DNA from: a virus
Reading direction: 5' to 3' (one strand)
DNA length: 42,137 nt
Virus record (IMG/VR): IMGVR_UViG_3300030616_000048
Coordinates: 1-42,137 of that record
Part shown: positions 1 to 42,125 of the stretch, piece by piece
Layout: every line of letters begins with the position of its first letter
How positions within the stretch are numbered: the stretch's first letter is position 1
The notes under the pieces: generated by a model
Told to the model about the DNA's origin: nothing
What the model saw: the letters and a program-made list of their open reading frames with translations, nothing else
Database searches by the model: none
Translations under genes and position numbers: made by a program

Positions 1-127
1 TCGAACCCTTGAACTTCCGAGCTTTCGCCGTGACTATGGTGTTGTGAGATATCCACAACCTTACATACTAGTATATATAATACATTCATACGGTAGCTAA
101 CCGTAATAATTGAACCATACTTTATTT
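1..127. repeat. 127-bp exact terminal repeat (circle joint)
   Basis: Bases 1-127 are identical to 40781-40907; the first mismatch is T at 128 against A at 40908. An exact 127-base overlap equals the largest k-mer commonly used by de Bruijn assemblers, so this is probably the node at which the circular genome closes and a second path branches off. The repeat holds part of a tRNA-like element on the minus strand, including most of a T-arm (AAGGG-TTCGACT-CCCTT, whose last bases lie outside this copy). Confidence 0.9.
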
Positions 128-130
128 TAG

Positions 131-248
131 CACCCTTGGAAGGAATTGAACCCCCACACGGAAATTACTAAATATTAGTTTATAATATCGTACGCATACT
201 AAAACCTCTAATATTCTAATTTAACCTTAAATGCAACCAGCTAGGGTA
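131..248 (-). ncRNA. tRNA-like structured element downstream of MuF copy A
   Basis: On the minus strand this 118-nt stretch begins ACCCTAG and ends CAAGGGT, which pair at 6 of 7 positions like an acceptor stem. A T-arm-like hairpin (GGGGG-TTCAATT-CCTTC) lies immediately before the 3' half. The centre holds an 8-bp perfect stem AATATTAG/CTAATATT enclosing 29 nt, far more than an anticodon loop, and a tiny TTTAA-GG-TTAAA hairpin where a D-arm would be. It is not a normal tRNA; it could be a degenerate or insertion-bearing tRNA gene, or another structured RNA. It replaces the Acb2-like gene and the extra RNA found at the same position in branch B. Confidence 0.4.
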
Positions 249-250
249 TA

Positions 251-1078
251 TTATTTATTTCTCCATTCCTCATATGTCTTATAATTTATATATTTTCCTG
301 TTGTCTGCTCATATCTTGTATCTGTACCTTGTATTTCTTCAAACACTTGTATTGTAGTACATCTACACCTGATATCTTCTTTAGCTATACCAAATCCACC
401 AGGATATTTTGTTTTTCCTCCAGAACTATAAAAATATCCTTCATTATCTGCATACTTCCCGTCAAGTTTCTGGTGTGTATCTCTGGTTCTCATATCCAAT
501 GTTGAAACCCATCTAACACGAAAATTTATTCCTGCTATTCTTGCTCCTTGATATCCTTTGTTTGTTGCCTCTTCTTGTATACGATGTGCTTCGGTTCTTG
601 CTATTAATAAACTTCTATCCTTGTCAACATTAAGCCTATTTCTAAGCTTCTTTGCAATCTTATCAATTGATTCTCCTTTTTTAACACTCTGCTTAACTAT
701 TCTTTTAGCTTCAATTAAGATATTATTTCTATTTCTTGTTAATCTTTGTATAAGTGTTTTCCCTGCTACTTTTCTATTGATAATTTTATTGACAATTTCG
801 TCTACTTTATTAATCAAACTTTTACTTATGTTTATTTTACCTTTTTTTTCGGAATTATACAATGTTCTTAAGTATTTTTGATTTGCTATTTGTTTGAATC
901 TTTTGAATAAAGATGGAGTCATTTTGTCATAAGACTTATTAATCTCATTCTCTATCTTTCTAACAAGCTTATACATGCCTTTTAATTTTGTATCTTTAGA
1001 TTTATCAAATATTAATAAATGCTTTTTAATCTTACTTATCAATAAAGCATATAATTTTCTAATTTCATTTTGAGTCAT
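251..1078 (-). CDS. MuF-type minor head protein, copy A
   Basis: This 275-residue protein has the C-terminal signature of the phage Mu gpF / SPP1 gp7 family: ARTEAHRIQEEA, then RWVSTLDMRTRDTHQKLDGK, then the DIRCRC motif. Residues 1-150 are lysine-rich and helical. MuF proteins are minor capsid components associated with the portal and enter the head in low copy; in some phages they are ejected with DNA or carry toxin domains, but none is fused here. It lies downstream of the portal in the late leftward block. A second copy at 41298-42125 differs at 12 residues, including Y36D and a GGKT/GENT change near the C-terminus. Confidence 0.88.
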   Translation of the reverse strand: MTQNEIRKLYALLISKIKKHLLIFDKSKDTKLKGMYKLVRKIENEINKSYDKMTPSLFKRFKQIANQKYLRTLYNSEKKGKINISKSLINKVDEIVNKIINRKVAGKTLIQRLTRNRNNILIEAKRIVKQSVKKGESIDKIAKKLRNRLNVDKDRSLLIARTEAHRIQEEATNKGYQGARIAGINFRVRWVSTLDMRTRDTHQKLDGKYADNEGYFYSSGGKTKYPGGFGIAKEDIRCRCTTIQVFEEIQGTDTRYEQTTGKYINYKTYEEWRNK

Positions 1079-7438: not shown

Positions 7439-7648
7439 TTATTTCTCCAGTTCTATATCAAGTATTCTTTCTATTTTCTCAACGTAAATTTTTTTCAACC
7501 TATCATTTTTGAGTGCATCATAAAAATTTTGCCTTGTCATGTAAAGTTTATCACTTATTTCATATAATCTTATACCTTTTTCTTTGCATGTATCTTTAAT
7601 AAGCTTGTAATTTTTATTCATTTTTTCATCTATGCCTAATATTTTCAT
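7439..7648 (-). CDS. Small HTH DNA-binding protein (XRE-like)
   Basis: A 69-residue protein that is essentially one Cro/CI-type helix-turn-helix: IKDTCKEKGIRLYEISDKL, then MTRQNFYDALKN as the recognition region, then KIERILDIEL. The start may be the second methionine (MNKNYKLIKD), which is where such domains usually begin. It is driven by the near-consensus promoter at 7854-7882 and precedes the late block, so it is a candidate early-to-late switch regulator. Confidence 0.65.
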   Translation of the reverse strand: MKILGIDEKMNKNYKLIKDTCKEKGIRLYEISDKLYMTRQNFYDALKNDRLKKIYVEKIERILDIELEK

Positions 7649-7853: not shown

Positions 7854-7882
7854 ATTATATGTCAAATTTTCATAAATGTCAA
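7854..7882 (-). promoter_or_regulatory. Near-consensus sigma-A promoter for the HTH gene
   Basis: TTGACA and TATAAT are separated by exactly 17 bases on the minus strand. A second TTTGACAT sits directly before the -10 element, making an 18-base direct repeat within the promoter. It starts inside the 3' end of the Rha-family gene. The transcript would have a leader of about 200 nt before the 69-aa HTH gene at 7648; I see no convincing gene in that leader apart from a 12-codon frame (MDISRNELFSWS). Confidence 0.75.
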
Positions 7883-8610
7883 ATTAGGCTCAGCTGCGTA
7901 TAATAAGGAATCTTTGTAATATCTATAAGGCTTGCAAATATTTCAATATCTTTTTTGGTATTTTTATAAATATCATGATACTCACTTTTATTGTCTAAGC
8001 CTTTTTTTATACTTTTTCTAATTATGTTTTCTGCATTTGAAACAATTATTAATTGCTCAGTAGTTAGAAAGTTTCTGTCTATATTTTCGTATCCTGGTTC
8101 TATTGTAAATAATTTTTTCCAAATTAAATTAGAGAAGTGAGTATAATAATTATCAGCGTTTTCTGATCCGTTTTCTCTTGCATATTCAATCATCTTTTTA
8201 ATTTCATCAGTTTCTTTTAACCTTATTTTTTTATTTTCATTTCTTGTCTGTTTCCATTCTTCGGAATTGTAATTTATAATCATATTTTCTATAAATTTAG
8301 ATTTTTCATTAAATTCATTTATAAAAGCTTCTTTAATTTCTGCAGCTTTTTCTCCTCTAAATCCCATAACCAAAAATAAAAACCCATCTTTTGTAATATT
8401 ATATAATTTAGTCATTCTATTTGACTTATCATTAAAATAGGTCACCTCATAATTGAGGAGCTTAAAACTTTCAGAGCAATCTAATTTTTCTATTGCTCTT
8501 AATATATTGTCATGTCTTCTGTTGAAATATTCTGCAATTTTAACAGATGTTGTAATTATCTTAGCTTTTTTAATATTCTTAATATTATTTATTTTTACCA
8601 AGCCTTCCAC
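7879..8610 (-). CDS. Rha-family phage regulatory protein
   Basis: The N-terminal 110 residues match the pRha domain: ITTSVKIAEYFNRRHDNILRAIEKL, then KLYNITKDGFLFLVMGFRGEKAAEIKEAFINEF. Rha proteins bind DNA and act as antirepressor-like regulators or interfere with phage growth in some hosts. The C-terminus is a charged, helical region of unknown role. The start is taken as the GTG nine bases after AGGAG (243 residues); an ATG abutting that RBS is too close. Expression should be limited by the terminator-like hairpin immediately upstream. Confidence 0.8.
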   Translation of the reverse strand: MEGLVKINNIKNIKKAKIITTSVKIAEYFNRRHDNILRAIEKLDCSESFKLLNYEVTYFNDKSNRMTKLYNITKDGFLFLVMGFRGEKAAEIKEAFINEFNEKSKFIENMIINYNSEEWKQTRNENKKIRLKETDEIKKMIEYARENGSENADNYYTHFSNLIWKKLFTIEPGYENIDRNFLTTEQLIIVSNAENIIRKSIKKGLDNKSEYHDIYKNTKKDIEIFASLIDITKIPYYTQLSLI

Positions 8611-8624
8611 AAAAATCATCTCCT

Positions 8625-8728
8625 AAAAAAATAGAAATTGTATTTACCAAATTCGCACCTCGATAAATACAATTTCTATTAACTTTTAGAAGCTTTGAAT
8701 TGGATGCGATTCAATTCAAAACTTCTAA
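8625..8728 (-). ncRNA. Leader RNA with two 17-bp hairpins and complementary loops; terminator-like attenuator
   Basis: The minus-strand leader folds into two long hairpins. Hairpin 1 (8686-8728) has a 17-base stem with one mismatch and a nine-base loop AAUCGCAUC. Hairpin 2 (8630-8680) has a perfect 17-bp stem, a 17-base loop containing GGUGCGA, and is followed by seven uridines, so it is a Rho-independent terminator ending just before the AGGAG of the Rha-family gene. Loop bases UCGCAUC and GGUGCGA can form seven consecutive pairs, a kissing interaction. Confidence 0.75.
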
Positions 8729-8736
8729 TTTCTAAC

Positions 8737-8764
8737 ATTATAGCATTTACAAAATAATTGTCAA
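8737..8764 (-). promoter_or_regulatory. Extended -10 promoter for the Rha leader
   Basis: TTGACA (8759-8764) and TATAAT (8737-8742) are 16 bases apart on the minus strand, with an extended TGC before the -10 element. The -35 box abuts the uridine tract of the upstream terminator, so one transcription unit ends and the next begins with no spare bases. Confidence 0.8.
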
Positions 8765-11656: not shown

Positions 11657-11685
11657 ATTATACATCGAATATCGGCATATGTCAA
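11657..11685 (-). promoter_or_regulatory. Consensus early promoter with operator-like spacer
   Basis: TTGACA and TATAAT are 17 bases apart, with the spacer TATGCCGATATTCGATG. The same promoter, identical over at least 38 bases, occurs at 20552-20580, and a variant occurs at 17266-17294. The shared interior with a CGA...TCG dyad suggests one phage regulator controls all three. Confidence 0.85.
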
Positions 11686-11722
11686 ATTATATTATCTATT
11701 CTTCCAACATTTATAAAACATT

Positions 11723-13259: not shown

Positions 13260-13437
13260 TCTTATCATCCTCTCTTCTCATAATTGCTCTTATTTCTGAA
13301 ATAACATCTGTTACTCCCTCACAATAGCCTTCATCAAATGTAAGAGAAAATTCATTAGGTATTATGTTTTTCATTCTTGCTTCATTTTTATTATCTAATA
13401 TACTTAATTTTCTTGATATTTTTTCCAAGATATCCAT
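13249..13437 (-). CDS. Small unknown helical protein
   Basis: About 62 residues from the ATG at 13437 (MDILEKISRKLSILDNKNEA); two upstream in-frame ATGs sit too close to the AAAGG site but cannot be excluded. Helical, with TFDEGYCEGVTDVISEIRAI in the second half. Overlaps the next gene by about eleven bases. Confidence 0.55.
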   Translation of the reverse strand: MDILEKISRKLSILDNKNEARMKNIIPNEFSLTFDEGYCEGVTDVISEIRAIMRREDDKNGL

Positions 13438-17265: not shown

Positions 17266-17294
17266 ATCATGCATCGAAATTCGTCATATGTCAA
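17266..17294 (-). promoter_or_regulatory. Third member of the shared-spacer promoter family
   Basis: TTGACA is followed by spacer TATGACGAATTTCGATG (17 bases) and a weak -10, CATGAT. The spacer differs from those at 11.66 and 20.56 kb in a few bases but keeps ATG-CGA-TTCGATG and contains the odd-centred dyad CGAA-T-TTCG. Confidence 0.7.
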
Positions 17295-17310
17295 GTAATT
17301 TATTATAAAA

Positions 17311-20551: not shown

Positions 20552-20580
20552 ATTATACATCGAATATCGGCATATGTCAA
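20552..20580 (-). promoter_or_regulatory. Consensus leftward early promoter
   Basis: TTGACA, spacer TATGCCGATATTCGATG and TATAAT; identical to the promoter at 11657-11685 including flanking AT bases. It diverges from the rightward promoter 38 bases away, forming a lambda-like switch region. Confidence 0.88.
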
Positions 20581-20617
20581 ATTATATTACAGTTATATTG
20601 CATTATACTTATTAGTA

Positions 20618-40536: not shown

Positions 40537-41055
40537 GATTTAGTTTTTTAGCCTGGTATACTATCCAGGATATCGACGGTTAAGTGAGTAACCGACTCTT
40601 TTATAATAGCATGGATGGATTTGCACCATCACCTTGGCTTTTTACACCACATTCTACTTGTTAAAATACACACTATACCAACTCGGATTAACATACGATT
40701 TAATCCTATTGAATTGCATATATTGCCTCATTGAAAATACGTTCAAATATTGGCTCAATGCGGAAAGCCACTCAAGGGAGTCGAACCCTTGAACTTCCGA
40801 GCTTTCGCCGTGACTATGGTGTTGTGAGATATCCACAACCTTACATACTAGTATATATAATACATTCATACGGTAGCTAACCGTAATAATTGAACCATAC
40901 TTTATTTATAATAATATAAGTGTGTTGTTACACCAAAGAGACTGGGACGCTCCCATAAAATTTATGTGTGTTCCGGCATTTTGCCATCTTGCTATACATA
41001 CAAGACCTGTTGTCTCACTCCTTAGATGATAGCTACCTCTAAGCCCACATCCTTA
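40537..41055 (-). ncRNA. Gene-free, hairpin-rich region with tRNA-like elements
   Basis: About 520 bases between the Acb2-like gene and the scaffold contain no credible gene. On the minus strand several T-arm-like hairpins occur: GATGG-TGCAAAT-CCATC preceded by TAGTGTG pairing fully (with wobbles) to CATGCTA, which gives a 69-nt tRNA-like fold with an anticodon-like loop GTAAAAA; and AAGGG-TTCGACT-CCCTT in the shared 127-mer, with GCTAC/GTGGC pairing upstream. Near 40980-41005 a CTTGT-ATGTATA-GCAAG stem-loop is followed by a GGCAAAATGCC hairpin, similar to a tRNA-Tyr anticodon plus variable arm. None folds as a complete normal tRNA, so they are degenerate or unusual tRNAs or parts of a large structured RNA. 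Confidence 0.45.
40781..40907. repeat. Second copy of the 127-bp repeat, branch point
   Basis: Identical to 1-127. To the left lies the scaffold side in both paths; to the right the main path continues as at base 128 and the other as at 40908. Unlike the start copy, the complete tRNA-like T-arm can be seen here with its left flank. Confidence 0.9.
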
Positions 41056-41061
41056 TATTAT

Positions 41062-41298
41062 TTATTCTTCTAAAACAATATTTTTTGTTGCAAACATTAA
41101 TGACTCTTCTAATTTTGTTATTGCAAGACTTTGTTCTCTGGATTGCTTACTATTTTCTAAAAGTGCTCTAACTAAAGATTTATAAAGCGTTCTTATAATT
41201 TCTATCCTATTTATTTGTTCCTCGTTAGGCTTTATATTTGTCATGCCTTTTTGTATCTGCTCAATTCTTTCATCAACTGTTAAATCTCTAATATCCAT
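41062..41298 (-). CDS. Acb2-like anti-CBASS cyclic nucleotide sponge
   Basis: Seventy-eight residues: helix MDIRDLTVDERIEQIQKGMT, then NEEQINRIEIIRTLYKSLVR, then SREQSLAITKLEESLMFATK and NIVLEE. The helical hairpin with the pattern SRExSLAxTKLEExxMxAxxxI is the hallmark of the Acb2/Tad1 hairpin (DUF7681) family, whose members sequester cyclic di- and trinucleotides made by CBASS defence systems. The ATG overlaps the MuF copy B stop as TAATG. The gene is only in branch B. Function is by family similarity seen by eye. Confidence 0.78.
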   Translation of the reverse strand: MDIRDLTVDERIEQIQKGMTNIKPNEEQINRIEIIRTLYKSLVRALLENSKQSREQSLAITKLEESLMFATKNIVLEE

Positions 41299-42125
41299 TA
41301 TTTATTTCTCCATTCCTCATATGTCTTATAATTAATATATTCTCCTGTTGTCTGTTCATATCTTGTATCTGTACCTTGTATTTCTTCAAACACTTGTATT
41401 GTAGTACATCTACACCTGATATCTTCCTTAGCTATACCAAATCCCCCAGGATATTTCGTATTTTCTCCAGAACTATAAAAATATCCTTCTTCATCTGCAT
41501 ACTTCCCGTCAAGTTTCTGGTGTGTATCTCTGGTTCTCATATCCAATGTCGAAACCCATCTAACACGAAAATTTATTCCTGCTATTCTTGCTCCTTGATA
41601 TCCTTTATTTGTTGCCTCTTCTTGTATACGATGTGCTTCGGTTCTTGCTATTAATAAACTTCTATTTTTATCAACATTAAGCCTATCTCTAAGCTTCTTT
41701 GCAATCTTATCAATAGATTCTCCTTTTTTAACACTCTGCTTAACTATTCTTTTAGCTTCAATTAAGATATTATTTCTATTTCTTGTCAATCTTTGTATAA
41801 GTGTTTTTCCTGCAACTTTTCTATTGATAATTTTATTGACAATTTCGTCTACTTTATTAATCAAATTTTTACTTATGTTTATTTTACCTTTTTTTTCGGA
41901 ATTATACAATGTTCTTAGATATTTTCTGCTTGCTATTTGTTTGAATCTTTTGAAAAGTGATGGATTCATCTTGTCATAAGATTTGTTAATCTCATTCTCT
42001 ATCTTTCTAACAAGTTTATCCATACCCTTTAATTTTGTGTCTTTAGTTTTGTCAAATATTAATAAATGCTTTTTAATCTTACTTATCAATAAAGCATATA
42101 ATTTTCTAATTTCATTTTGAGTCAT
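41298..42125 (-). CDS. MuF-type minor head protein, copy B
   Basis: A 275-residue full-length homologue of copy A, with the same ARTEAHRIQEEA, RWVSTLDMRTRDTHQKLDGK and DIRCRC motifs. Twelve substitutions separate them, clustered in the N-terminal helical part and near the C-terminus (ADNE/ADEE; GGKT/GENT; TGKY/TGEY). DNA upstream of the ATG matches copy A as far as the window runs. It is most likely the same gene from a strain variant rather than a tandem duplicate. Confidence 0.85.
   Translation of the reverse strand: MTQNEIRKLYALLISKIKKHLLIFDKTKDTKLKGMDKLVRKIENEINKSYDKMNPSLFKRFKQIASRKYLRTLYNSEKKGKINISKNLINKVDEIVNKIINRKVAGKTLIQRLTRNRNNILIEAKRIVKQSVKKGESIDKIAKKLRDRLNVDKNRSLLIARTEAHRIQEEATNKGYQGARIAGINFRVRWVSTLDMRTRDTHQKLDGKYADEEGYFYSSGENTKYPGGFGIAKEDIRCRCTTIQVFEEIQGTDTRYEQTTGEYINYKTYEEWRNK

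Follow-up and report, generated by a model that had tools for sequence, protein, structure and literature searches.

Does the leader in front of the antirepressor gene of this phage carry an RNA control element, and do the loops of its two hairpins recognise each other? A first-pass annotation of the window (the whole 42,137-nucleotide stretch of viral DNA analysed here) had described a promoter and two 17-bp hairpins, the second read as a Rho-independent terminator, within positions 8625–8764, and all of these parts were found to be present at the coordinates given. On the minus strand, the region contains in order an upstream hairpin, the promoter, the two hairpins (HP1 and HP2), a tract of seven U residues (U7), a Shine-Dalgarno site and the antirepressor gene. 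The promoter (8764–8737) is of the extended -10 sigma-70 type, TTGACA-16-TATAAT with TG before the -10 box (12/12 match), and its position gives an expected transcription start at about 8730. The upstream hairpin (8790–8769, minus strand) is terminator-like, belongs to the unit of an upstream zinc-ribbon ORF, is identical in the sister contig L003 described below, and is predicted to insulate the leader promoter from that unit.

The expected transcript has HP1 (8728–8686) right at its 5′ end. This hairpin folds into 17 pairs, one of them U·G, between a 5′ arm at 8728–8712 and a 3′ arm at 8702–8686, with a 9-nt loop AAUCGCAUC (8711–8703) that consists of AA followed by UCGCAUC. HP2 (8680–8630) has 17 perfect outer pairs between arms at 8680–8664 and 8646–8630, and its 17-nt loop (8663–8647) contains GA followed by GGUGCGA; the minimum free energy structure adds inner pairs around this loop, giving a longer stem. 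The leader of the window folds at -45 kcal/mol, compared with -20.9 ± 2.9 for dinucleotide shuffles (z = -8.4). The loop heptamers UCGCAUC (8709–8703) and GGUGCGA (8659–8653) on the minus strand are complementary over the seven bases that had been claimed, of which six form Watson-Crick pairs and one a G·U pair. The U7 tract (8631–8625) makes HP2 a predicted intrinsic terminator and is followed by the Shine-Dalgarno sequence AGGAG (8624–8620), 9 nt before the GTG at 8610. The Shine-Dalgarno site lies outside the hairpins and is not buried in them. Compared by eye, its region is partly complementary to segments of HP1 in both the window and L003, at different places in each.

The antirepressor gene (7879–8610, minus strand) encodes a Rha N-terminal domain and a C-terminal domain that is common to the L003 protein. 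The window protein matched PF09669 (Rha) with 89.5 bits against a cut-off of 29.9 (E 2e-25) and was also matched to Rha-like and antirepressor families of PHROG, and searches of viral and bacterial contigs returned no close relatives of it. Its start is probably GTG 8610 rather than ATG 8619 because the former is aligned with the start of the L003 sister protein. A leader peptide before the gene was considered and rejected, the frames in the leader being only short or weakly started. A second promoter with a 12/12 match (7882–7854) overlaps the 3′ end of the gene, and the ~200 nt between it and the next HTH-like ORF (7439–7648) have no notable structure (z 0.23). Another promoter-like element of the window is a 38-nt repeat, identical at 11657–11694 and 20552–20589 and 74% alike at 17266–17303, which on the minus strand reads TTGACA-17-TATAAT with a spacer containing ATGCCGATATTCGAT and looks like a repeated early promoter, possibly operator-bearing. 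The ends of the window (1–1078 and 40781–42125) are near-copies, 127 nt of which are identical (1–127 and 40781–40907). A minor head gene is present in each (251–1078 and 41298–42125), the copies differing from one another and being unequally spaced; the ends suggest either a true duplication of the gene or a genome that is circular and was closed across variants of the strain.

The sister contig L003 (IMGVR_UViG_3300028920_000428), which was found by a terminase search, covers part of its phage only and has about 12 kb in common with the window. It matched window positions 13425–8726 at 99.5% and 8261–1005 at 97%, the stretch between them being unmatched, and a finer alignment showed near-complete identity to just past the -10 box, which was full again from about 7900. 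The identity was 97–100% in the flanks and 0.35–0.85 in the leader and gene. The exchanged segment spans 8728–7900 in the window and 4690–5540 in L003, and the Rha-type gene is replaced in it by an AntA-type gene (PF08346, 76.3 bits, cut-off 27), behind the same promoter (4661–4688 in L003). The N-terminal domains of the two proteins differ, and their C-terminal domains are 53% identical. The alignments indicate that leader and antirepressor gene were swapped together, as a single cassette, between two phages that are nearly identical elsewhere.

The L003 leader has the same two-hairpin architecture (fold z = -7.2), with an HP1 of 17 pairs and the loop AA followed by UAGGCCC, and an HP2 of 17–18 pairs with GA followed by GGGCCUA in its loop. 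These heptamers are perfectly complementary over 7 nt without G·U and occupy the same loop positions as in the window (two purines followed by 7 nt). The leaders align poorly, their arm sequences being different, and the hairpin arms of the two alleles showed no significant similarity (P 0.09 and 0.62). By the first-pass annotation's own test, its reading would have been refuted if related phages lacked the loop complementarity; the complementarity is retained in L003, and the claim of a kissing-loop leader before the antirepressor gene is supported by a second leader of other sequence and the same design.

When loops were shuffled, at least 7 complementary nt with one G·U allowed were obtained at P 0.014 for the window, and the loop match of the window taken alone is only suggestive. 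For L003, a 7-nt match without G·U had P 0.0009, and the joint chance of both matches is about 1e-5, with the identical register not yet counted. An ordinary leader made of a 5′ hairpin and a terminator, the loops of which match by chance, might account for the window, since hairpins are common in AT-rich DNA and a 7-nt match is about 1–2% probable given both loops. This explanation becomes very improbable with L003, where the architecture recurs and the loops match anew, perfectly over 7 nt and in the same register, and such pairs of stems were found to be very rare in other phage DNA. Read from two alleles only, two stem-loops with complementary loops appear to be retained through covariation, as is characteristic of a kissing loop. 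Since the L003 leader, of unrelated sequence, keeps both hairpins and the match of their loops, the pairing of the loops is in all probability a genuine control element, whose mode of action described below is a prediction.

The strand on which this element works was judged from its four wobble pairs, which are U·G in HP1, in HP2 and in the kiss of the window, and G·U in HP2 of L003. Only the sense RNA lets all four pair as G·U; in the antisense strand they become A·C. With four of four wobble pairs fitting the sense strand only, an RNA of that strand is favoured over an operator in the DNA or an antisense transcript; the evidence is modest (one in sixteen under no preference). The same pairs bear on the possibility of a DNA-level element, in which the palindromes would be operators, bound by the antirepressor or by some other protein, and the loops would match incidentally. 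That long near-perfect palindromes adjoin the promoter and that the leader changes along with the DNA-binding domain would suit an operator, but within either allele the two palindromes have no half-site in common (P 0.57 and 0.82 for the best arm identity), the non-Watson-Crick pairs are tolerated in sense RNA only and the loop match in both alleles is left unexplained. We consider a DNA-level element highly improbable, and the direct-operator reading was rejected on the arms lacking a common half-site.

The pairing of cognate heptamers was calculated at -8.6 and -12.1 kcal/mol, and that of mixed-allele heptamers at -1.8 and -3.7 kcal/mol. Since the shared flanks stayed the same when the loop code changed, the 12 kb in common are unlikely to encode a trans target, and, as far as the part of the phage covered by L003 shows, the loop partner should be within the cassette or in another copy of the cassette. 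The weak mixed-allele pairs and the exchange of leader and gene as a cassette are also what would be seen with a trans immunity RNA of the c4 or sar kind, in which the leader of a resident phage kisses the leader on an incoming antirepressor mRNA and silences it, and differing loops ignore each other; RNA control of antirepressors is recurrent in phages, and P1 and P7 are an example of heteroimmunity (PMC12197685). Against it, both loops here are on one sense transcript, whereas c4 and sar pair with the ribosome site of their target, Rfam gave no c4 match, and neither an integrase nor a clear repressor was found in the contig. Immunity of this kind is, in our judgement, quite unlikely. No match to phage integrase or resolvase families was obtained in the contig, with the integrase search covering the two main families, and the phage may therefore be virulent; the usual lysogeny switch may be absent, and a classical role of the leader in lysogeny is uncertain.

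The attenuator part of the earlier claim stood in the window, where HP2 is directly followed by U7 upstream of the gene and scores as a terminator, and was weakened in L003, where the tail after HP2 is interrupted (UUUUGUUAU) and scores lower. The TransTerm-style tail score was 4.7 for the window and, depending on the stem end chosen, 4.0 or 2.2 for L003. The HP2 of L003 was not listed in a consensus terminator scan, which was limited to loops of 3–8 nt. Termination may be conserved but weaker in L003, and the attenuator reading is possible, its conservation across the alleles being uncertain. HP1 and HP2 do not compete in the predicted fold.

A weaker terminator in L003 would be in line with a leader that is purely structural in cis, in which locked 5′ hairpins protect the antirepressor mRNA against decay and keep the ribosome site clear, with neither a switch nor a trans RNA. 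Such a role would also fit HP1 being at the very 5′ end, HP2 ending 5–8 nt before the Shine-Dalgarno site in both alleles, this site being outside the hairpins, and the phage being without the integrases that were searched. Protection of the mRNA, however, needs no 7-nt loop match kept across a complete change of sequence, and the clear U7 terminator tract of the window opposes simple mRNA stability. We regard a purely structural leader as possible but rather unlikely.

The geometry of the kiss was estimated roughly with rods and linkers, using stems of 17–19 bp, a kiss of 7 bp and a linker of 5 nt (window) or 8 nt (L003). For both stems to stay intact in a cis kiss, the hairpins would have to lie at no more than about 36 degrees to each other in the window and 58 degrees in L003, and a straight or 120-degree cis kiss would require 3–5 base pairs to be opened at the foot of each stem. 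For two separate leader molecules, the same estimate gives a kiss free of strain, and a dimer would be closed by two such contacts. The geometry thus speaks against a plain cis kiss that leaves both stems whole; more probable are a kiss joining two leader RNAs, or one in cis for which the terminator hairpin opens at its foot. In cis, kissing would weaken HP2 at its foot, beside the U tract, and under this model such a strained kiss could act as an antiterminator. A further possibility, which we consider a long shot, is that the leader is a self-recognising dimer, in which HP1 of one copy kisses HP2 of the other and reciprocally, making an allele-specific double kiss. If so, the leader would report the number of active copies of the same phage per cell and set the output of antirepressor accordingly, and the phage would have a protein-free means to tell its own kind from relatives. 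The two purines 5′ of the pairing bases in both loops (AA and GA) offer a lead by analogy, as the dimerisation loop of HIV-1 is likewise purine-flanked (PMC7357161).

Further instances were sought by script, as long hairpins lying side by side and having complementary, GC-containing loops; the thresholds differed somewhat between scans. The scans covered loci of the C-terminal domain, 12 Rha and 11 AntA loci from sampled Clostridia-type genomes, ten phage Rha/AntA loci, related replication-gene loci, 80 terminase loci and four whole phages. No second paired-loop leader was found in about 1.9 Mb of DNA from other phages and prophages, including the other Rha/AntA loci scanned, and the few isolated pairs there are apparently due to chance. 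One match was obtained in a set of 451 kb, none in 265 kb around related replication genes, and two isolated hairpin pairs in 1.18 Mb around related terminases. The match in the 451-kb set is a duplicated hairpin array of Fusobacterium phage FNU_1P, where two identical tandem hairpins with a partly self-complementary loop TTGCAA (25229–25338 of L063) lie downstream of the gene for a site-specific integrase and of the small ORF next to it. When the settings were loosened, weak pairs turned up here and there, several of them elsewhere in the window and none there with two long stems. Upstream of an AntA-type gene of C. difficile (969–1050 of L094), two weaker hairpins of 12 pairs (2 G·U each) have loops that match over 8 nt (AGAGAAAC/GTTTCTCT), probably by chance. 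Searches by promoter pattern returned L003 or unrelated sites only. The whole window gave no Rfam match at gathering, c4 and mini-ykkC/guanidine-II included, and the leader loci L001 and L003 gave chance-level matches only (up to E 5). As far as these scans reach, the paired-loop leader is known from one lineage only, in two alleles.

The explanation we prefer, with about even confidence, is a sense-strand regulatory leader RNA in which a kissing contact sets the output of antirepressor. The promoter match, the fold, the loop complementarity in two unrelated leaders, the wobble bias and the cassette boundaries were all computed, and from them we infer transcription, termination, actual kissing and the direction of regulation as follows. 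Transcription would start from about 8730, with HP1 forming first at the 5′ end and HP2 next, and HP2 with its U tract would end many transcripts just before the Shine-Dalgarno site. The predicted products would be a leader RNA some 105 nt long and, as a minority, antirepressor mRNA made by read-through. The kiss of the loop-1 and loop-2 heptamers would set the amount of antirepressor made, either in trans, with the short leader acting on the read-through mRNA as IsrK does, or in cis, at the price of about 3–5 pairs opened at each foot. Leader and gene would travel as one cassette, with each allele retaining its own loop code.

Among known RNAs, the guanidine-II (mini-ykkC) riboswitch resembles this leader in having two neighbouring hairpins with a loop-loop contact before a gene. 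In guanidine-II, the loops bind guanidine and have the conserved motif ACGR in common, whereas the loops here are variable, complementary over 7 nt and without a match to that family in Rfam. In the pRNA of phi29, two different mutually complementary loops drive the formation of RNA oligomers (PMC7357161), but pRNA pairs over 4 nt and serves DNA packaging, while the present loops belong to an antirepressor mRNA leader in a phage with another type of terminase. A search of open-licence papers found no description of a kissing-hairpin antirepressor leader, and the papers on IsrK, c4 and sar contain none. Leader and antisense RNAs are known to act on antirepressor genes (PMC4825925; PMC12197685), and it is these three RNAs that appear closest in logic to the leader described here. 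The c4 RNA of phages P1 and P7, which pairs with the ribosome-site region of ant mRNA (PMC12197685), is, as proposed here, an allele-specific RNA control of a phage antirepressor, but here both complementary parts are within the leader. The sar RNA of phage P22 also limits antirepressor synthesis; it is an antisense RNA, whereas here both partners are on one sense transcript. IsrK of the Salmonella prophage Gifsy-1 is made by a leaky Rho-independent terminator, which gives a short RNA, acting in trans upon its own leader, and a read-through antirepressor mRNA (PMC4825925), and the predicted promoter and terminator here agree with this layout of a small RNA from a promoter before an antirepressor operon. 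IsrK acts through alternative structures and the upstream ORF orf45, with kissing loops unmentioned in that report (PMC4825925); the present leader has instead two stable hairpins, complementary loops and no clear leader ORF, in an unrelated host and before an unrelated gene. Phages have thus repeatedly placed antirepressors under RNA control, each by a different trick, and another would be added by a leader that keeps its loops complementary although nearly all of its sequence has changed, and that is exchanged along with the DNA-binding domain; its specificity code would be built in.
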